Shown here: positions 24,504-62,974 of the stretch, piece after piece
Numbering within the stretch: position 1 is the stretch's first letter
Layout: each line of letters starts with the position of its first letter
Assembly (NCBI GenBank): GCA_016776505.1
Contig: JADHTG010000011.1
Location: 1-64,000 of the forward strand
Source: Bacteroidota bacterium
GTDB taxonomy: Bacteria > Bacteroidota > Bacteroidia > CAILMK01 > JAAYUY01
DNA length: 64,000 nt
Direction: 5' to 3'
Made by a program: the position numbers and the translations under genes
The notes under the pieces: generated by a model
Seen by the model: only the letters and a program-made list of their open reading frames with translations
Databases searched by the model: none
Told to the model about the DNA's origin: nothing

Positions 24504-25760
24504 TCAGGTGTAAAATAGATAATGAATATGATCGTGCAATTCACTGATTAACAAATCTTTTCCCTCCGACAAATGATCAATAATTTCCTGCCTGCCGTTT
24601 TTCACTTTTATCATGCACACCTGGTCAAAAACTTCAATATGGTAATATTTGCTCAATTGCACCATGATTCTGAGAATTAACTCAGGGAAATTATTTAAGC
24701 AAACATATTTCACCGATCCCTTAGTGACATGAAAATTAATGACCAGGCGAGTATCAGAGATGGAGTCAAGAATATATTGTTCGTCTTTCTTGCTAAATCC
24801 CTTCTTAGGTGTGGATTTAATCTTTAATACATACTTATTGAAGCGATGTACAATAATAGGAATGTGCTTAATGGGATGTGCCTCTGAGCAAATGCGGCTG
24901 CCACTTTCTACAGCCAGGTCAAATAGTTTTACCTCCAGGGGAATATTTAACTCTTTTAAAGGATTGATGGACTTGTAATGTAAGACTTTAGAGCCCAATT
25001 TGGTTAATTCCAGGGCATCATCATAACTCAATTCAGGGATCAGGATCGCTTTTTCATAGTTCTTGGGATCCGCATTGTAAATTCCTTTTACGTCTTTCCA
25101 TAAAACCACTTTCTCTGCATGTGTGAAGTTTCCTATTAAGGCAGCTGTATAATCAGAACCTTCCCTTCCAAGAGTTGTTGAATGTCCTTGTTCGCTTGAT
25201 CCAATAAAACCCTGTGTTATATAAAGCCTGGAAGTATTTTCCTGGATATATTGATTGAGAAGGCCTTTGGAAACATCTTCCTTCACCTCGGCATTTCGAT
25301 ATAAATCGGATGTCTTCAAATATGCTCTGATGTCAAACCAGTTATTATCAATTTCCTGGTCTGTTAAATAGCAACTAATTAATTTGCTTGAAATTAACTC
25401 TCCAAAGCATACAAGCTGGTCGTAAAGAAAATCAAACTCTTGCTGCTTATAATCATTGAATTTAGCATTTAATTCATCAAATAAATCATGGATATTTTTT
25501 TCAACTGCTCCCGAACTATTGAAATTCAATGCATTAATCAGCCCGTGGTGAAATTCCTTTATTTGATTGAATGATTTATAAAACTGGGATTTTTCGTGTA
25601 AAAACTCGCTGATTAATTTTTCTAATTTATTCGTTGTCTTGTCAATAGCGGATAAAACAAGGATTACTTTATCATTCTTATTCTGAACCAGGAAATCCCT
25701 CAGCTTTTCGATTGCGGTTGCATCCCGAATGATTCCCCCTCCAAACTTATAAACCTGCAT
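24504..25760 (-). CDS. Aspartate kinase, atypical
   Basis: This 418-residue amino-acid kinase family protein would phosphorylate aspartate at the start of lysine, threonine and methionine synthesis. The body of the family is clear: FGELISSKL, LGREGSDYTAALIG (the nucleotide/aspartate region), KDVKGIYNADPKN and YDDALELTKLGSKVLH. About 120 residues at the C-terminus are ACT-like (SDTRLVINFHVTKGSVK). The N-terminal phosphate loop reads KFGGGIIRDA in place of the usual KFGGTSV or KFGGASV, so the conserved serine or threonine is absent. It may be an active variant or a regulatory paralogue. It is divergent from fbp with 93 bases between the starts. Confidence 0.8.
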   Translation of the reverse strand: MQVYKFGGGIIRDATAIEKLRDFLVQNKNDKVILVLSAIDKTTNKLEKLISEFLHEKSQFYKSFNQIKEFHHGLINALNFNSSGAVEKNIHDLFDELNAKFNDYKQQEFDFLYDQLVCFGELISSKLISCYLTDQEIDNNWFDIRAYLKTSDLYRNAEVKEDVSKGLLNQYIQENTSRLYITQGFIGSSEQGHSTTLGREGSDYTAALIGNFTHAEKVVLWKDVKGIYNADPKNYEKAILIPELSYDDALELTKLGSKVLHYKSINPLKELNIPLEVKLFDLAVESGSRICSEAHPIKHIPIIVHRFNKYVLKIKSTPKKGFSKKDEQYILDSISDTRLVINFHVTKGSVKYVCLNNFPELILRIMVQLSKYYHIEVFDQVCMIKVKNGRQEIIDHLSEGKDLLISELHDHIHYLFYT

Positions 25761-52681: not shown

Positions 52682-53440
52682 TTATGTCCTCAAATAAGAC
52701 GCTCCATTGATATCAATAATACATCCAGTCATAAAATCAGGGGCTTCGTCAGCACAATAACGAATCATGTTGGCGACTTCTCCGGGTCTTGCCACCCGGC
52801 CCAAAGGACTTTCATTCAGGAATACATCCGCCATTGGACTGTTTAATGCAGCTTTCGACATATCCGTTTCCACAAATCCCGGCGCAATTGTATACACAAA
52901 TACACCCTGTTCACCCAGTGCCTTTGCCATGGACTGTCCCAATACATTGAGTCCTGCCTTGGATGCTCCGTAGGCCATAGCCACAGGTTCTCCCCGGAAT
53001 GCTCCACGGGAAGAAATATTGATTATTCTACCTCCTCCAGTCCCTGTCATATGCTTCGCAATTAGAAAGGACAGGTTGGCCGGTCCGGACAAATTGAGGG
53101 AGATTGTTTTCTGCCAATGCTCCAGCCATGCATCAAAATCCGCATTTTCAAATTCGAGCATATCGAAAATCCCTGCATTATTTACCAGAACATCTACTTT
53201 AATATATTTATCTAAAACTCTATCAACCAAGCTTTTAAGCGATTCATTATCAGACAGATCTGCTTGTAAAAGGATATGATCTCCCGGCTTCAATTCTTTA
53301 AAAGTGAATTCGGCCGCTTTTCGATTTTGATGATACTGTATGATCACATTTGCTTCTTTTTCAGCCATCAGCTTGGCTGTTTCCTTTCCAATTCCACGAG
53401 ATGATCCAGTGATTAATACTGTTTTACCTTTTAAACTCAT
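52682..53440 (-). CDS. SDR family oxidoreductase (FabG-like)
   Basis: This 252-residue classical short-chain dehydrogenase has the cofactor loop TGSSRGIG (11-18), the NNAG motif (87-90), the catalytic serine in NISSRG (S143 or S144) and Y157/K161 in YGASK. It resembles 3-oxoacyl-ACP reductase, but isolated copies like this often act on other carbonyl or alcohol substrates, so fatty-acid synthesis is not certain. It follows the ApgM-type gene by 110 bases on the same strand and is followed by a strong palindrome. Confidence 0.9.
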   Translation of the reverse strand: MSLKGKTVLITGSSRGIGKETAKLMAEKEANVIIQYHQNRKAAEFTFKELKPGDHILLQADLSDNESLKSLVDRVLDKYIKVDVLVNNAGIFDMLEFENADFDAWLEHWQKTISLNLSGPANLSFLIAKHMTGTGGGRIINISSRGAFRGEPVAMAYGASKAGLNVLGQSMAKALGEQGVFVYTIAPGFVETDMSKAALNSPMADVFLNESPLGRVARPGEVANMIRYCADEAPDFMTGCIIDINGASYLRT

Positions 53441-53550: not shown

Positions 53551-54756
53551 TCATATCTTTCTCAACAATGCCTTCATAAATTCATCGCCTTTCAGCTCTC
53601 CATAAAAGCCATTCTTCACACTTTCTTCATTGTATTCAACAACATCATCTCCTGCCACACCCGGATGATATATGATAAATGGAACGGAATCATGTGTATG
53701 AGTTCGTAGATCGCAAGGTGTGGGATGATCAGGAAGCAAAGCCAAAGCGACATCTTCTTTCATTTTTGCAGTTTCTTCCATCAGGAATTTAACCACTCTA
53801 TTGTCCAGATATTCGATGGTTTTTGTTTTCAACTCAGCATTCCCTTCATGTCCGGCTTCATCAGAAGCTTCAATATGCAGATACACTAAATCGACTTCTT
53901 CCAATGCTTTCAAAGCAGCTTCTGCTTTTCCCTCGTAATTGGTGGTATACAATCCGGTTGAACCGGGGACTTTAATTCCTTTCATCCCTGCATAGGCTCC
54001 AATACCGTAAATCAAATCAACAGCAGATATAACAGCGCCTCTGATGCTATATAATTCCTGTAGTGTTTTCATTTTTGGTTTATGGCCGGGCGACCAGGGC
54101 CAGATGGAATTAGCCGGATCCTTGCCTGCTGCTATTCTTTCCAGGTTAACAGGATGTTTTGCCAGTATTGCCTGGGATTTAAGTATCAGCTCATTCAAAA
54201 GATCTCCAGTTACTGATTTTGAATTATTTGGCTTTACCAGGACATCTCTAAATGGCGTGCCGGGCACATCATGAGGTGGAGTACAATTGAAATTATTCAG
54301 CCCATTTTTTACCACCAGTAAATGCCTGTAGCTTACACCTGGATGGAAAGTAATGCTGTCTGAATCCAATTCTATCTTCAGGGCTGAAATCAGCTCCTGG
54401 GCTTCTTCATTGGAAATATGACCTGCAGAATGATTTTTGATGATCCCCTTCTTTAAGCAAATGAGATTACAGCGCATGGCTAAATCCCTTTCGTCCAGTT
54501 CCACTCCCATGCTGGCTGCTTCCAGCACTCCCCGCCCCTGGTAAACTTCCTTCACATCATAGCCTAAGACCGCCATGTTTGCGATTTCACTTCCGGGTGG
54601 CATGTCGGGAGGCACTGTCTGTAAAAGTCCGGCACGGCCCATCTGAGCCAGCCTGTCGATGCTGGGTTTGCTGGCCGCTTGCAAGGGTGTTTTATTACCC
54701 AGGCGTTCCATTGGATAATCGGCCATCCCGTCTCCTAAAATGATGATATACTTCAT
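53551..54756 (-). CDS. apgM: ApgM-family enzyme: independent phosphoglycerate mutase or ThrB2-type homoserine kinase
   Basis: This 401-residue member of the alkaline-phosphatase superfamily starts with the metal-binding IILGDGMAD and the nucleophile serine S56 in PPGSEIAN. GRGVLEAASMG, CNLICLK, NHSAGHIS, HIEASDEAGHEG and the late LPDHPTP block complete the two-metal site. By family it can be a cofactor-independent phosphoglycerate mutase of the archaeal type. A branch of this family has, however, been identified as the homoserine kinase of Bacteroides and Desulfovibrio. The location at the end of an operon containing thrC favours the kinase role here. It starts nine bases after the C1 peptidase stop. 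Confidence 0.9.
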   Translation of the reverse strand: MKYIIILGDGMADYPMERLGNKTPLQAASKPSIDRLAQMGRAGLLQTVPPDMPPGSEIANMAVLGYDVKEVYQGRGVLEAASMGVELDERDLAMRCNLICLKKGIIKNHSAGHISNEEAQELISALKIELDSDSITFHPGVSYRHLLVVKNGLNNFNCTPPHDVPGTPFRDVLVKPNNSKSVTGDLLNELILKSQAILAKHPVNLERIAAGKDPANSIWPWSPGHKPKMKTLQELYSIRGAVISAVDLIYGIGAYAGMKGIKVPGSTGLYTTNYEGKAEAALKALEEVDLVYLHIEASDEAGHEGNAELKTKTIEYLDNRVVKFLMEETAKMKEDVALALLPDHPTPCDLRTHTHDSVPFIIYHPGVAGDDVVEYNEESVKNGFYGELKGDEFMKALLRKI

Positions 54757-54765
54757 GACCCCGTT

Positions 54766-57606
54766 TTATTCAGATTTCATTATCTTAAATGATTCTTCAA
54801 TGCTGTTATAATTCAGTTGGACTATATAATAGCCTTTTGCTAAATCAGACATATCAATTTGGAATTGCCTGGAATTAGCTCCTGCCCTTTTTTGATCAGT
54901 GAATAAGAGATTGCCTTTCAGATCAAAAACAGAAATAAAAATTGGCGAATATGTGTTTTCATTAAGATTCACAAACAGTTTGTCTTTTGCAGGATTAGGA
55001 TACACCTGAATACGCTCCGATTTTATTTCCAAAACCGATTGCAATAAATCCGCACTGATTTCAACAAAATAAAGGGAGGTTAAGCTGCTATCGACAATCC
55101 TGTAGGTAAACTTGTCTGTTCCCGTGAAGTCCGTTTCATGAATATAGAGAATTCTAGAATTCACTGAATCAACAACTAACTTCCCATATTGAGGTTGTTG
55201 TGGAATCTCACAACGGATGCTGTTTCCTGATTTGCTATAGCCACTGAACACCAGTATGCTGTCATTTTGCTTTTGAAGTAAACGCCTGGACCAGGCTTCT
55301 GAATTGACCCATGCTTTTTCTGAAAAGTTTTTCAAAGTTCCTGTATTATTGGAATCTGACTTATCATCAAGCGTGAATCCTGATCTTTCATCGAATTTCC
55401 AATAGGCCAGCAGACCATTTTCTTTCCCTGCCAAAGGTAAAAACATATAATCCCTGATTTGCTTTTCATTTCTGACATAATTCCATATCCTGACTTCATC
55501 CAGTTCACCTTGATAATACCAGGTATTTCCTTTCATACAGCCAATGTAAAGATTTTTTGTACCCCTGTAATGTGCATCTGCCTTCCGCTCACCTGCCAGT
55601 ATTCCATCTCTTAAAATAGTTTGCATCATTGAAGTGGTATCATAGGTAATTGTCCAATGATGCCATTCTGAGTCTGTATACACTTCATCGGTATGCACAT
55701 CATCCCCCCAAAAGCCACACATGAGTTTGTTGTCCCGAAAGCCTATATGCAAACCATAATGACCCTTATTCCATGTACCTGCACCAATTACAAACTGGTT
55801 GGAAGGATCCGGATTTCTCTTTGCCCAAAACTCTATGGTGAAATCATGGTTTGAAATATCGATTCCTGAACCACAGTTTACACAATCGTTATCACCATCG
55901 TATTTCAATGCATAACCAGAGCCAGCAACCGGTAAATAAAGACTATTTGAAACAACTACTGTATTTGATGGTGTTGAAAGTAGGCCATTGTATCTTGCTT
56001 TGACTTTATATTGTGTTCCATTGGGTACAAGCACTTCTTCTAAAAACGTATCTGTTGCAAACTTATATTCATAGCCATCTTTAAAAATGACATAATCGGT
56101 CAGACCGCTTACATCTGAAGGTTTGTTCCAGGTCAGGTGATAAGTGCCTGATTCTTCATTCACGGCCAGGTTTTCCGGTGGAAAGGCAGTAGAAAGCATC
56201 ATGATGGAAGATCTTGTTAAACCATGGTTCACAATATCTAAGAGGCTGTCATCTGATGAATATTCCTTTATGCCATTCCTGTAGTCCATAATTGACCAGG
56301 AAATCAGCTGGCCTGCAGCACTTGTATCTTCATCATCTTCAGTAATGCTGATAAAAACCCTCGCCATTTCCAAATCCTCCAGGTAAAGCAGGGGACTGAT
56401 ATCAAAACCCATTTCAATAGGATCCTCATTATTACCCTGCATTGGATATGGACCACCTCTTTTATTCAATTGATAGAGGCTTATTTCATAATCAGGAACG
56501 GTATCATTAACATATTCTGCAATCCCAATTTTTATACTGAGTTTATTTCTTTTCTCGTGCTGTAATTTTAGTTTTAGGCTCATTTCAGGTTTGACCTGTT
56601 CTTTTTCAGGAATTACGATGTACACCTGTCCGTTTGATATACCGCCTTCACTCACTTTGAGTGCAAGATTTCTGTAAAGATTGTAAGCCCGACCAGAGTC
56701 TGCCCAATTTGCACTCCAGGTATTCACCATGATCATAGCTCCTATTTCCCAATCACGCATATCCACAATTCCATCCCCGGTGATATCGATGTCGTTGGTG
56801 AATTTCTTGTCATTATTGATATCATAGCGCACTGAATCATCATAGCCGGCAAATGTCATGGCATGATCAACCGGATCTGACCATTCAATGATGATCCTTC
56901 TTCTTTCTTCATAGCCGCCTAATGGCAAAGGACGGTTTTTGGCAGAAGCGGCACCGGCAGAAAAGTTGACTATTCCCCCTGTTTCTGAACCTTCTCCATG
57001 ATGAACCAGATATTCCTTTAAAGTGTTTAATCCTTCAGGGGTATTGACTTTCAGTCTATAATAGCTGACGACCCTGTTATTCATAGCTCTGTAATAGGTA
57101 TCATATCCGCTTATCCAACCTTTATCACCAATCGGATATAAACCTCCATATTCCTTTAAATTCGGGCAACCGTTAACTTTCAGGATTTGCCAGCCATCTG
57201 TATAATTTGATCCGTTTTCATCGTTTCCCTTGTTTAAAAAGTTGTAGGTAAAATGGGAAGGATACTGATTGACAGAATCATCTGAAGACAAATCTCTTAA
57301 ACGGTTGACTTCATAAGTATAAATATAGGCAATTCCACTGGCCTGGCTGCAGCTGCCTCCACTTTGCAATACAACGCTTCTGAAGTATTTATTCTGGGTA
57401 TTGTCCACCCGGGAAGGCAAGGTGTTTCGATAAACAGACATTTCCGGGCTCCATTCTGGAATGTCTTCTATCTCCTGCTCAGTAAGCTCCCTGAAACCAC
57501 CGACTATCCAGGGATCTCCATTGGGATCGGGATTTATATTTTGAAGATTTTGGGCATAATTCGAAAACACGAAAAGGCTAAACACGAAAACAAATAGATT
57601 CTTCAT
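54766..57606 (-). CDS. Secreted C1 (papain-like) peptidase with FN3, LamG and T9SS domains
   Basis: The protein is 946 residues from ATG 57606; the longer frame to 57729 adds a non-signal stretch and is rejected. A signal peptide (1-18) is followed by the peptidase (about 60-335) with Q81, C86 in GGSCSQASG, H248 in DHAMTFAGYD and N295 in VNTWSANWADSG, the full papain set. Between H and N lies an EF-hand/dockerin-like loop (274-285). Then come an unassigned beta region, an FN3 domain (about 476-553), a LamG jelly roll (about 565-760), a cadherin-like segment and a T9SS type A domain (868-946). It should be exposed on the cell surface. Confidence 0.85.
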   Translation of the reverse strand: MKNLFVFVFSLFVFSNYAQNLQNINPDPNGDPWIVGGFRELTEQEIEDIPEWSPEMSVYRNTLPSRVDNTQNKYFRSVVLQSGGSCSQASGIAYIYTYEVNRLRDLSSDDSVNQYPSHFTYNFLNKGNDENGSNYTDGWQILKVNGCPNLKEYGGLYPIGDKGWISGYDTYYRAMNNRVVSYYRLKVNTPEGLNTLKEYLVHHGEGSETGGIVNFSAGAASAKNRPLPLGGYEERRRIIIEWSDPVDHAMTFAGYDDSVRYDINNDKKFTNDIDITGDGIVDMRDWEIGAMIMVNTWSANWADSGRAYNLYRNLALKVSEGGISNGQVYIVIPEKEQVKPEMSLKLKLQHEKRNKLSIKIGIAEYVNDTVPDYEISLYQLNKRGGPYPMQGNNEDPIEMGFDISPLLYLEDLEMARVFISITEDDEDTSAAGQLISWSIMDYRNGIKEYSSDDSLLDIVNHGLTRSSIMMLSTAFPPENLAVNEESGTYHLTWNKPSDVSGLTDYVIFKDGYEYKFATDTFLEEVLVPNGTQYKVKARYNGLLSTPSNTVVVSNSLYLPVAGSGYALKYDGDNDCVNCGSGIDISNHDFTIEFWAKRNPDPSNQFVIGAGTWNKGHYGLHIGFRDNKLMCGFWGDDVHTDEVYTDSEWHHWTITYDTTSMMQTILRDGILAGERKADAHYRGTKNLYIGCMKGNTWYYQGELDEVRIWNYVRNEKQIRDYMFLPLAGKENGLLAYWKFDERSGFTLDDKSDSNNTGTLKNFSEKAWVNSEAWSRRLLQKQNDSILVFSGYSKSGNSIRCEIPQQPQYGKLVVDSVNSRILYIHETDFTGTDKFTYRIVDSSLTSLYFVEISADLLQSVLEIKSERIQVYPNPAKDKLFVNLNENTYSPIFISVFDLKGNLLFTDQKRAGANSRQFQIDMSDLAKGYYIVQLNYNSIEESFKIMKSE

Positions 57607-57725
57607 CGGGTGTTTTTTGAAATCTGAAACAAACTTAGCAAAGTGGGAGTTAATGGCAAAGGAAAATCTGCCGACTGTCCCAGCACTGTTTCTCGCAGAG
57701 GACGGTGAAGATTCTCTTGAGAAAC

Positions 57726-59153
57726 TCAATCTTTCACCAGCAGATTCCTCACCTCCCTGGAGGCATAGACTTTTGCTTCTGAGAAATAGTGCTCATGGTT
57801 GACAACGATTTTGTTCAGCCGGTAGTGATAATTCACCATGAGGCCGGCTGACTGCCTCAAACCATTGTCTGACAGATCAGCCATCCAGTTAATATGCTGG
57901 ATCTTGGCTCCGTTTGACAGGTGAAAATGCGCTACAGGATCGAACGCCCTGTCCCCTTTTTTTTCATGGATCAAATAATGGGCACAAAACCGGAGCAAGG
58001 GTATTTTAATCGCCTCCCTTTTGTTTTTATTTTTATGCCAATCCGAATTTAAAATTTTTAGCAATCCCTCGTTGGCAGAAAAAGTCTTAGCCAGTTTTTT
58101 GATTTTCTCCCCCTCTTTCATGCTTAGCACATCATCATGGTCCAATAAATAAGCTTCCAGCCATTGGCGAAACTTAGGAATGGGAGAAAGTGTTGCATAA
58201 AACTTTAGATTGGTAAATTCAGACGAAAGTTTATTGACGACTCTCTTGATTAGGAAATTACCATAACTGATGCCTTTCAATCCTTTTTGTGTGGCCGTGA
58301 TGGAGTAGAAAATAGCCGTATTGGCATCTTTGGGATCAATTGGTGTTTTGCTTTCATCAAGTAATTCATGAATATTATCCGCCATTCCTTTTGTTAGAGC
58401 TACTTCCACAAATATCAGGGGTTCGTTGGGCAGCTTGTAATGCAGGAAGGCATAAATGCGTTTGTCGGAATGTATCCTGTGCTTCAGGTTTCCCCATGTT
58501 TTGATTTCGTGAACAGCTTCGTATTCCATCAGTTTTTCAAGCAAAATTGCAGGGGAATTCCAATTAATTTCCACCAGATCTAATAAATTAATATCAAAAA
58601 ATCCTCTAAGAATCCTTTTGATATCATTATCCAGTTTCTTTAAGCGGGGTAATGTCGGTATCAGCGGGATAAGCTCTCGCCTCATTTCTTTCAAGAATAT
58701 AAATCCATCAGGTAAAAGGATGAATTGCCTGAGTAATTTAACCCGGGGAGGAATGAGAGCTTTCGTCAGTTCCAACTCAGCTACTATTTTTTGGTCTTCG
58801 TTTTTTGCTTTACGAAGTTTTCTTATTTTATCATTCAATAGTTTTGTATTGATATCAAAATCACGAGCTAAAATCCTAAGAAATCGAGCCTTGCCTTCAC
58901 TATTGAGATTTATGTAGATCATTCCAAGATGTACTACCCTGGATTGATTTGATATCTCGCCACCTGTTTCTTCAATGCATATGCGAGCCAGGTTTTTTAT
59001 CGCTTCCTCATCATCTTTGTTTAAGGACGGATTTATATGGAAGGGAACTTTTCCGCTTTCAAGCCATGCTTTAGTGATTTTATCTATTGTTGCCTGACTG
59101 ATTCCTTCTATGGATTGTTCAATTTTTATTTCTTCTGATTGTTTTGACATCAA
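57726..59153 (-). CDS. Malonyl-CoA decarboxylase
   Basis: This 475-residue enzyme converts malonyl-CoA to acetyl-CoA and CO2. The N-terminal helical domain includes RFLRILARDFDI (91-102). The GNAT-like catalytic domain shows YSITATQKGLKGISYGNFLIKRV (283-305), with a serine at 284, and DPVAHFHLSNGA (405-416) with the expected catalytic histidine H411, followed by MVNYHY. Two methionines precede SKQ, and either could start translation. It lies 36 bases after thrC and is probably co-transcribed. Malonyl-CoA decarboxylase is more often found next to malonate genes, so this context is unusual. Confidence 0.9.
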   Translation of the reverse strand: MMSKQSEEIKIEQSIEGISQATIDKITKAWLESGKVPFHINPSLNKDDEEAIKNLARICIEETGGEISNQSRVVHLGMIYINLNSEGKARFLRILARDFDINTKLLNDKIRKLRKAKNEDQKIVAELELTKALIPPRVKLLRQFILLPDGFIFLKEMRRELIPLIPTLPRLKKLDNDIKRILRGFFDINLLDLVEINWNSPAILLEKLMEYEAVHEIKTWGNLKHRIHSDKRIYAFLHYKLPNEPLIFVEVALTKGMADNIHELLDESKTPIDPKDANTAIFYSITATQKGLKGISYGNFLIKRVVNKLSSEFTNLKFYATLSPIPKFRQWLEAYLLDHDDVLSMKEGEKIKKLAKTFSANEGLLKILNSDWHKNKNKREAIKIPLLRFCAHYLIHEKKGDRAFDPVAHFHLSNGAKIQHINWMADLSDNGLRQSAGLMVNYHYRLNKIVVNHEHYFSEAKVYASREVRNLLVKD

Positions 59154-59189
59154 ATTATCTATAAGGATTTAATAAATCTTTATATGAAA

Positions 59190-60557
59190 TTATTTATACT
59201 TAATTAGCAAATAATCCCTGAAATCAGCATAGTTGCTGGCAAGACTGTCAAATGATTCTGCTTTGTCCTCCAATCCTGTCAAAGTCGCTGGTAAAGCTGG
59301 ATCAAAGCCCAATATCCTTCTTATTTCTTCAGGAAATTTTGCCGGATGAGCTGTTTCCAGGGAAATACAAAGCTGATCCTCATCAACTTGATGTCCTGCT
59401 AAATAAGCGTTTAATCCTGCCCAAGCGACAGAACCATGCGGTTCAAGTAAGACTTTGTGATTGTCCCATGCACCTTTAATCGTATTTCGTGTCTCATCTT
59501 CATTTATGCTGACAGCATAGATTTCTGCTCGCAATTGATCCATATCCGGCATTTTGCCTATTGCCCCTTTTTCATCCATGATTCCACCATAGAGGGCTAT
59601 TAAGCGGGACATATTGGAAGGATGTCCCACATTCATTGCGGAAGAGATGCAATTGCGTGAAGGTTCTATTTTCGTATAATGTCCTGTTTTCATAAATACA
59701 GGGAACACATCGTTTTCATTGGTTGCTACCACAAACTTCTTTACGGGCAATCCCATTTCTTTAGCCATTACACCACCCATCATATCTCCGAAATTGCCTG
59801 ATGGAATAGAAAAAATGACATCTTCATCGTCCTTTCCCTTTCGGAGTTTGGCAAAAGCATAAAAATAATAAACAGTTTGTGGAATCAATCGACCGATGTT
59901 GATTGAATTGGCTGAAGATAAATTCAAATGATCCAAACCGGAATCAGCAAAAGCTTCTTTGACCATGGCCTGGCAATCATCAAATTTTCCATCGATGGCA
60001 ATAATCTGCACATTTTTGCCCAGGGTAGTCATTTGTTTGCGTTGCCTTTCAGTGACTTCTTTTTCTGGGAAAAGAACAAGCACTCTGATATTGTCCAAGC
60101 CATAATAGGCATTGGCAATAGCACTGCCTGTATCTCCGGAAGTAGCCGTGAGTATCAGCAAATTTTTATCCTGCCTGCTAAGATAATAATTCATCAGCCT
60201 GGCCATCATGCGAGCAGCAAAGTCCTTGAATGAAGCAGTGGGACCCTGGTCCAGCCTCAGAATGTATTTGTTATCAACCACCTGTTCTAGTGGTACTTTA
60301 AAATTATAGGCATCTTTGACCAGATCAGATAGTACCCTTTCTTCCATCTCACCCACAAGAAACTTCCGTATGACCTCATAAGCAATTTCGAAATACTCCA
60401 TGTGTGAGAATGCTGCGATGTCTTCCTGTGTAAAATGAGGCAACTTCTCAGGCATGTATAATCCTTTATCAGGAGCTATTCCCTTAATCAATGCTTCAGG
60501 GAAGCTAACAGTTTTAGCCTGGAGGTTGGTGGAGTATAGTTTTAATGGTTTTATCAT
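59190..60557 (-). CDS. thrC: Threonine synthase
   Basis: This 455-residue PLP enzyme converts O-phosphohomoserine to threonine. The N-terminal LYSTNLQAKTVSFPEALIKGIAPDKGLYMPE is typical of the long bacterial/fungal class, and the PLP lysine is K111 in PTASFKDFAARMM. The phosphate-binding TATSGDTGSAIANAYYG and substrate-binding SIPSGNFGDMMGG blocks follow. It leads an apparent operon thrC, malonyl-CoA decarboxylase, C1 peptidase and ApgM-family enzyme. Homoserine dehydrogenase, which makes the precursor, is not in the window. Confidence 0.96.
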   Translation of the reverse strand: MIKPLKLYSTNLQAKTVSFPEALIKGIAPDKGLYMPEKLPHFTQEDIAAFSHMEYFEIAYEVIRKFLVGEMEERVLSDLVKDAYNFKVPLEQVVDNKYILRLDQGPTASFKDFAARMMARLMNYYLSRQDKNLLILTATSGDTGSAIANAYYGLDNIRVLVLFPEKEVTERQRKQMTTLGKNVQIIAIDGKFDDCQAMVKEAFADSGLDHLNLSSANSINIGRLIPQTVYYFYAFAKLRKGKDDEDVIFSIPSGNFGDMMGGVMAKEMGLPVKKFVVATNENDVFPVFMKTGHYTKIEPSRNCISSAMNVGHPSNMSRLIALYGGIMDEKGAIGKMPDMDQLRAEIYAVSINEDETRNTIKGAWDNHKVLLEPHGSVAWAGLNAYLAGHQVDEDQLCISLETAHPAKFPEEIRRILGFDPALPATLTGLEDKAESFDSLASNYADFRDYLLIKYK

Positions 60558-60798
60558 ATCGGTATTAAAATCACAAAATACAAATCACAAATGTCAAATA
60601 AAATACAAACAACAAAATTCAAATCTCAAATAAATTCCAAAATAGAAATTAGCAAAACTCAAACAATTTTGCCTACTTGGATTTTTCGATCATGGAAGAT
60701 AATAATTTATTTAATTTCAGAAGTTTTGAAAATTGACTTTTTGATATTGTGATTTATTTGTTTTTTGTTTTTGGAATTTGGAATTTGGAATTTGGAAT
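60558..60798. repeat. AT-rich spacer with four tandem GGAATTT units
   Basis: GGAATTT occurs four times in a row at 60773-60800, so the last unit supplies the first bases of the PLP enzyme's stop codon. The left part of the spacer is a series of AAATCACAAAT-like and AAATTCAAAT-like words that are partly complementary to the right part and could fold into an imperfect long hairpin. No gene is present. Confidence 0.75.
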
Positions 60799-62503: not shown

Positions 62504-62974
62504 ATGGCTAATCCTTTTCAAATTGATATTCTCGATCGTAAAATACTGGATTTGATCACACTGGATGCACGCATCCCCTTCCTGGAAGTAGCGAGAAAGT
62601 GCCAGATTTCAGGTGCTGCGGTTCATCAGCGGGTTCAGAAACTTGTTCAGGCAGGCATTATTTCCGGTTCCGGATTCAATATCAATCCCAAAGGCCTGGG
62701 TTATATGACCTGTGCTTTCATTGGTATACAGGTCAACCTGATCTCCACCAGCACACATGATGAAGTGTTTAACAGGATACGTGAAATTCCTGAAATTGTG
62801 GAATGTCATCACATTACCGGACGTTATTCTTTGCTGCTGAAAATCTTCGCCCGCGACAACGAGCATTTGAAAAACCTGATAGTTGAGAAGATACAATCCA
62901 TTCCTGAGATCATCAGTACAGAAACTTTTATTTCCTTGCAGGAAGGATTTACAAGGACTTTGCCCGTGAAGTGA
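62504..62974 (+). CDS. Lrp/AsnC family transcriptional regulator
   Basis: This 156-residue DNA-binding protein has an N-terminal winged helix-turn-helix (ILDRKILDLITLDARIPFLEVARKC... SGAAVHQRVQKLVQAGII, residues 9-53). A linker and the C-terminal RAM/AsnC effector domain (66-156) follow, with the GRYSLLLKIFARD motif. Members sense amino acids and form octamers. The divergent position next to a Cys/Met-metabolism enzyme suggests that this enzyme is a target, with a sulfur amino acid as a possible effector. Length is typical. Confidence 0.93.
   Translation: MANPFQIDILDRKILDLITLDARIPFLEVARKCQISGAAVHQRVQKLVQAGIISGSGFNINPKGLGYMTCAFIGIQVNLISTSTHDEVFNRIREIPEIVECHHITGRYSLLLKIFARDNEHLKNLIVEKIQSIPEIISTETFISLQEGFTRTLPVK

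Follow-up and report, generated by a model that had tools for sequence, protein, structure and literature searches.

Genes of the thrC-thrB2 region and their order in relatives

The window, which is the whole stretch of 64,000 nucleotides analysed, belongs to a genome assembled in 129 contigs and 92.8% complete. Four neighbouring open reading frames on its minus strand encode a threonine synthase (ThrC), a malonyl-CoA decarboxylase (MCD), a T9SS-exported protein and an ApgM-like protein, referred to here as ThrB2. These genes and the others considered below are as follows.

24504-25760, minus strand: monofunctional aspartokinase, unfused to homoserine dehydrogenase, found by the ThrA search
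52682-53440, minus strand: FabG-like short-chain dehydrogenase (SDR), adjoining thrB2
53551-54756, minus strand: thrB2, 401 aa; TIGR02535 'proposed homoserine kinase', cofactor-independent phosphoglycerate mutase by NCBI rules
54766-57606, minus strand: T9SS-exported 946-aa protein with a LamG domain; likely start ATG at 57606 (MKNLFVF...)
57726-59153, minus strand: MCD (PF05292, 339 bits)
59190-60557, minus strand: thrC, threonine synthase of a divergent subtype, 455 aa
60799-62178, minus strand: Cys/Met-metabolism PLP enzyme, 459 aa, methionine gamma-lyase / O-acetylhomoserine sulfhydrylase superfamily; no equivalog
62504-62974, plus strand: Lrp/AsnC-type regulator, divergent from the PLP gene

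The four genes run in the same direction, as a sequence-only reading of this DNA had stated, and its spacers of 36 bases (thrC to MCD) and 9 bases (exported protein to thrB2) were correct; the spacer between MCD and the exported protein is 119 bases and not 120. The spacer between the PLP gene and thrC (60558-60798) is AT-rich and contains a short tandem run of AAATTCC. The exported protein had been labelled a C1 peptidase, but no Pfam peptidase model matched it, even at E<=10. Pfam gave Laminin_G_3, the sorting tail of a T9SS substrate and some matches below threshold, and papain-like C/H/N motifs were seen by eye only, so that it is better described as a T9SS-exported LamG protein.

Gene order was compared between this genome (G000), a genome of the same genus (G001) and a further family genome (G003). 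In G001 one contig carries the PLP gene and thrC, followed by an isomerase-like gene on the reverse strand, a different exported protein and then MCD, where the contig ends; the exported protein, thrB2, the SDR and aroQ are found together on another contig. In G003 the PLP gene precedes thrC, MCD does not follow it, and the exported protein, thrB2, the SDR and aroQ again stand together. The stable units across the family genomes were PLP-thrC, with the PLP gene immediately preceding thrC in three genomes, and exported protein-thrB2-SDR-aroQ, with the exported protein adjoining thrB2 in three. The linkage of MCD to thrC recurred in G001 but not in G003, and the divergent regulator was found beside the PLP gene in two genomes, here and in G001. 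Since other genes separate thrC from MCD in G001 and MCD does not follow thrC in G003, we regard MCD and the exported protein as mere neighbours of thrC and thrB2 and not as members of a conserved operon, and the 'threonine operon' proposed from the window did not survive the comparison. The PLP enzyme upstream of thrC could be a user of O-phosphohomoserine.

Family assignment of the ApgM-like protein

The ApgM-like protein matched TIGR02535 over its full length with 543.6 bits, the curated cut-off being 446.3. It also passed two models named after mutases, NF003242 (558 bits) and TIGR00306 (520 bits), which accounts for the automatic annotation as a mutase. Since GpmA was found in the genome at full score (388 bits) and the ApgM-like protein is its sole PF10143 member, glycolysis needs no mutase of the ApgM type.

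In a tree of 44 rows, the protein was placed within the Bacteroidota ThrB2 clade (100/98) and not among the phosphoglycerate mutases (PGMs). This clade also holds proteins whose genes sit between thrA and thrC in Bacteroides, Parabacteroides and related bacteria. A 100/100 branch split the ThrB2-type rows from the PGM-type rows, which include two archaeal PGMs of known structure, the PGM side consisting of three long-branched rows only. In the alignment, M11, N60, Y143, W219, W221 and E296 were invariant in all 41 ThrB2-type sequences; both archaeal PGMs have L, H, H, L, R and K at these positions, and a plasmid PGM-type protein has the same residues except for I at 219. The PGM motif DRRAGR is changed to NHSAGH in the ApgM-like protein, and the replacements of PGM-type residues include R221W, H143Y and K296E. 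The metal-site candidates D9, D13, D299, H303, D343, H344 and H353 are common to ThrB2-type and PGM rows. The structure predicted for ThrB2 (pLDDT 95) matched PGM 2zkt best (Z 46.5, rmsd 2.2, 369 residues aligned). With the closest fold that of a PGM and the substrate-region residues different, ThrB2 looks like a variant with an altered substrate region on a shared fold.

The scores above the cut-offs of NF003242 and TIGR00306, the closest structure and the common metal site would all fit an ApgM-type phosphoglycerate mutase. We nevertheless regard that reading as highly improbable, because GpmA is already present, the tree groups the protein with ThrB2s of thr operons, the motif and the three PGM-type residues are replaced, and among relatives the protein co-occurs only with thrC. 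The product of 53551-54756 is almost certainly a member of the TIGR02535 group of proposed stand-in homoserine kinases, and the conclusion that it is not a phosphoglycerate mutase is supported. The earlier view that the mutase annotation is misleading here was thus borne out by the TIGR02535 score, the tree, the residues and the presence of GpmA; the opposite combination, a normal thrB and a placement among mutases, was looked for and neither part was found. On a Macrococcus plasmid (L165:3992-5227), a PGM-type ApgM protein adjoins a DASS anion transporter.

A search across the genome found neither a GHMP homoserine kinase nor gpmI. The best TIGR00191 hit was 10.8 bits, in an unrelated protein, and the only two GHMP proteins were mevalonate-pathway enzymes (mevalonate-diphosphate decarboxylase and a mevalonate-kinase-like protein), in agreement with the sequence-only reading, which had not seen such a kinase. 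The ApgM-like protein itself is not a GHMP kinase by TIGR00191, and the APH-type thrB_alt (TIGR00938) had no match in the genome. Among 60 related genomes, 14 carried a full-score thrC: with thrB sought near thrC only, ten had an adjoining GHMP thrB, four had ThrB2 and none was seen with both. The genomic link of thrB2 to thrC is a thrC nearby on the same strand, and most of 40 related loci carry thrC, homoserine dehydrogenase (HSDH) or aspartokinase. In a Lachnospiraceae MAG (L027:7498-8004) a gene that appears shikimate-kinase-like by eye overlaps thrB2 by 4 bases.

The idea of a stand-in homoserine kinase had already been put forward by TIGRFAMs, by GapMind in 2020 and by a gut survey of 2022. 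TIGR02535 was proposed as such by the TIGRFAM curators, and the name ThrB2 comes from the 2022 survey, where it was based on co-occurrence and co-localisation (PMC9026213). Mutants of BT2402 of Bacteroides thetaiotaomicron have a fitness defect that is rescued by threonine, but a thrB mutant of E. coli was not complemented by BT2402 (PMC7311316). The evidence from Bacteroides is genetic only, and the claim that an ApgM branch is known to be the homoserine kinase there is not supported. A TIGR02535 protein of Dehalobacter was proposed to be a threonine kinase (PMC4285132). The literature searched contained no enzyme assay of a ThrB2.

Public records label ThrB2 as a glycolytic enzyme, for example WP_007756966.1, whose gene sits between thrA and thrC in Bacteroides finegoldii, a mislabelling through which prototrophs appear to be threonine auxotrophs. 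The residues Y143, H145, W219, W221 and E296 offer a simple test to separate ThrB2 from PGM. Two records filed as plasmids, from Parabacteroides distasonis (L163) and Bacteroides finegoldii (L164), carry the thr operon alongside atp genes or radA and look like chromosomal fragments.

Homoserine dehydrogenase and the divergent ThrC

The threonine pathway drawn in the sequence-only reading has a gap that it missed, as the genome contains no recognisable HSDH. PF00742 had no match in G000, G001, G003 and one more family genome, G002 (92.8-96% complete), whereas HSDH was detected in 14/14 controls. Searching with full ThrA by tblastn returned only the monofunctional aspartokinase in these four genomes and in one more Bacteroidales genome (L010), which apparently also lacks HSDH. 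A complete pathway from aspartate to threonine, including HSDH, was found in none of G000-G003. An assembly gap as the sole cause was rejected, the chance for G000, G001 and G003 by incompleteness alone being about 1e-4. Of these five genomes, four (G000, G001, G003 and L010) still carry thrB2 and the divergent thrC; G002 lacks thrC and thrB2 as well, which fits plain loss. HSDH is missing in half of 60 class relatives, but it is present in every one of the 11 genomes outside the family that carry thrC, so a thrC without HSDH is not the usual course. The new point is that thrB2 and a divergent thrC are kept in a lineage without recognisable HSDH, which points to an unrecognised source of homoserine or to a changed function.

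The SDR next to thrB2 was considered as an HSDH replacement. Orthologues (83% and 55%) lie beside thrB2 in two other thrB2-bearing family genomes and none was found in G002; among 12 genomes tested, an orthologue occurred only in the three thrB2-bearing genomes of the family. The L010 genome has none (best match 36%) despite its apparent lack of HSDH, which speaks against the SDR as a general replacement. As the linkage may also be ordinary synteny, the SDR is kept only as a weak candidate for a non-homologous HSDH. A sulfonolipid route, with a cysteate synthase derived from a ThrC-like enzyme and an SDR (PMC11211663), was also considered and rejected, as nothing tied it to these genes.

The thrC product scored 260 bits against TIGR00260 (cut-off 167) and keeps the phosphate-binding NSINxxR, SGN, ATSGDTG and the PLP lysine. 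It has LRLDQGPTASFKD in place of LELFHGPTxAFKD and AMN in place of AMD. The ThrCs of G000, G001, G003, L010 and L011 formed a clade of their own (100/100) on a branch of 0.97. At positions 101, 109, 261 and 309 they carry R, S, G and N, in contrast to the E, A, A and D found in 25/25 other sequences. Two of these substitutions (E101R, A109S, A261G, D309N) are within 10 residues of the PLP lysine; as all four positions are otherwise invariant, the reaction of ThrC could have shifted. The ThrB2s of the same genomes have a short branch and fall within the normal clade, without a jump like that of ThrC. Between G000 and G001, both genes are under purifying selection, with dN/dS (NG86) of about 0.06 for thrB2 and 0.09 for thrC at synonymous sites near saturation. 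The single-sequence fold of ThrC had a pLDDT of 35.

A second, archaeal-type threonine-synthase-like protein of about 365 aa, with PRK06450 as the best model below its cut-off, was present in three family genomes (L145:9162-10256 on contig C6 of this genome, L146:8789-9874 and L147:9177-10259). A similar protein was found in G019, which has neither HSDH nor a full-score thrC.

Proposed roles of the pair and comparison with known systems

We consider it probable that ThrB2 makes O-phosphohomoserine, which ThrC would then convert to threonine, and that homoserine comes from a source other than a recognisable HSDH. ThrB2 would be a phosphotransferase of the alkaline-phosphatase superfamily replacing the GHMP homoserine kinase, probably using two metal ions and an active-site serine that becomes phosphorylated, with ATP or another phosphate ester as the presumed donor. 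Because the family has no recognisable HSDH, homoserine may be formed by a non-homologous aspartate-semialdehyde reductase or taken from outside the cell. The failure of BT2402 to complement, the HSDH-less family and the departures of ThrC at four invariant positions count against this reading. It is possible, though we hold it only tentatively, that homoserine is made by a non-homologous reductase, the SDR being the nearest candidate, or that ThrB2 and a re-specialised ThrC run another phospho-amino-acid reaction; either one, if true, would add to aspartate-family metabolism a step that has not been described.

Repurposing of the pair, in which ThrB2 phosphorylates serine or threonine and ThrC then uses the product in a different beta- or gamma-replacement, would agree with the retention of both genes in G000, G001, G003 and apparently L010 without HSDH, with the separate ThrC clade and its four unique substitutions next to a short ThrB2 branch, and with the threonine kinase proposed for Dehalobacter. 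It appears rather unlikely, since the family-specific residues of ThrB2 are unchanged and ThrC retains its motifs and PLP lysine and exceeds the thrC cut-off. Less probable still is a decaying or salvage pathway that lost homoserine synthesis and kept thrB2 and thrC only for imported homoserine, with the reaction of ThrB2 unchanged. The absence of HSDH from all four family genomes, the further loss of thrC and thrB2 in G002 and the many class relatives without HSDH suit such decay, but the 11 genomes with thrC outside the family all keep HSDH, and a dependable supply of free homoserine has to be assumed.

Compared with known systems, the protein belongs with ThrB2/TIGR02535 (BT2402) by curated cut-off and tree, by its linkage to thrC and by replacing thrB where thrC is present. 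Known Bacteroidales members, however, lie in thrA-thrB2-thrC with HSDH, whereas here HSDH is missing, thrC comes before thrB2 with two unrelated genes between them, and thrC is of a different subtype. The homoserine kinase of Desulfovibrio, DvMF_0971 (PMC5764234), is another non-orthologous stand-in for ThrB, but it is a shikimate-kinase relative from an unrelated family; the sequence-only reading had confused it with the ApgM branch in assigning that branch to Desulfovibrio. The archaeal-type ApgM proteins (PDB 2zkt, 3kd8) share the fold, the metal-binding residues and the serine region with ThrB2, but form a separate clade, and their substrate-region residues are replaced throughout the ThrB2 group. 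The ThrC resembles bacterial and fungal threonine synthases with an N-terminal domain (PDB 1vb3, 4f4f, 1kl7) in passing the TIGR00260 cut-off and in its NSINxxR, SGN and PLP lysine, and differs from them in E101R, A109S, A261G, D309N and an RLD(Q/H) motif, all unique to the five-member clade.
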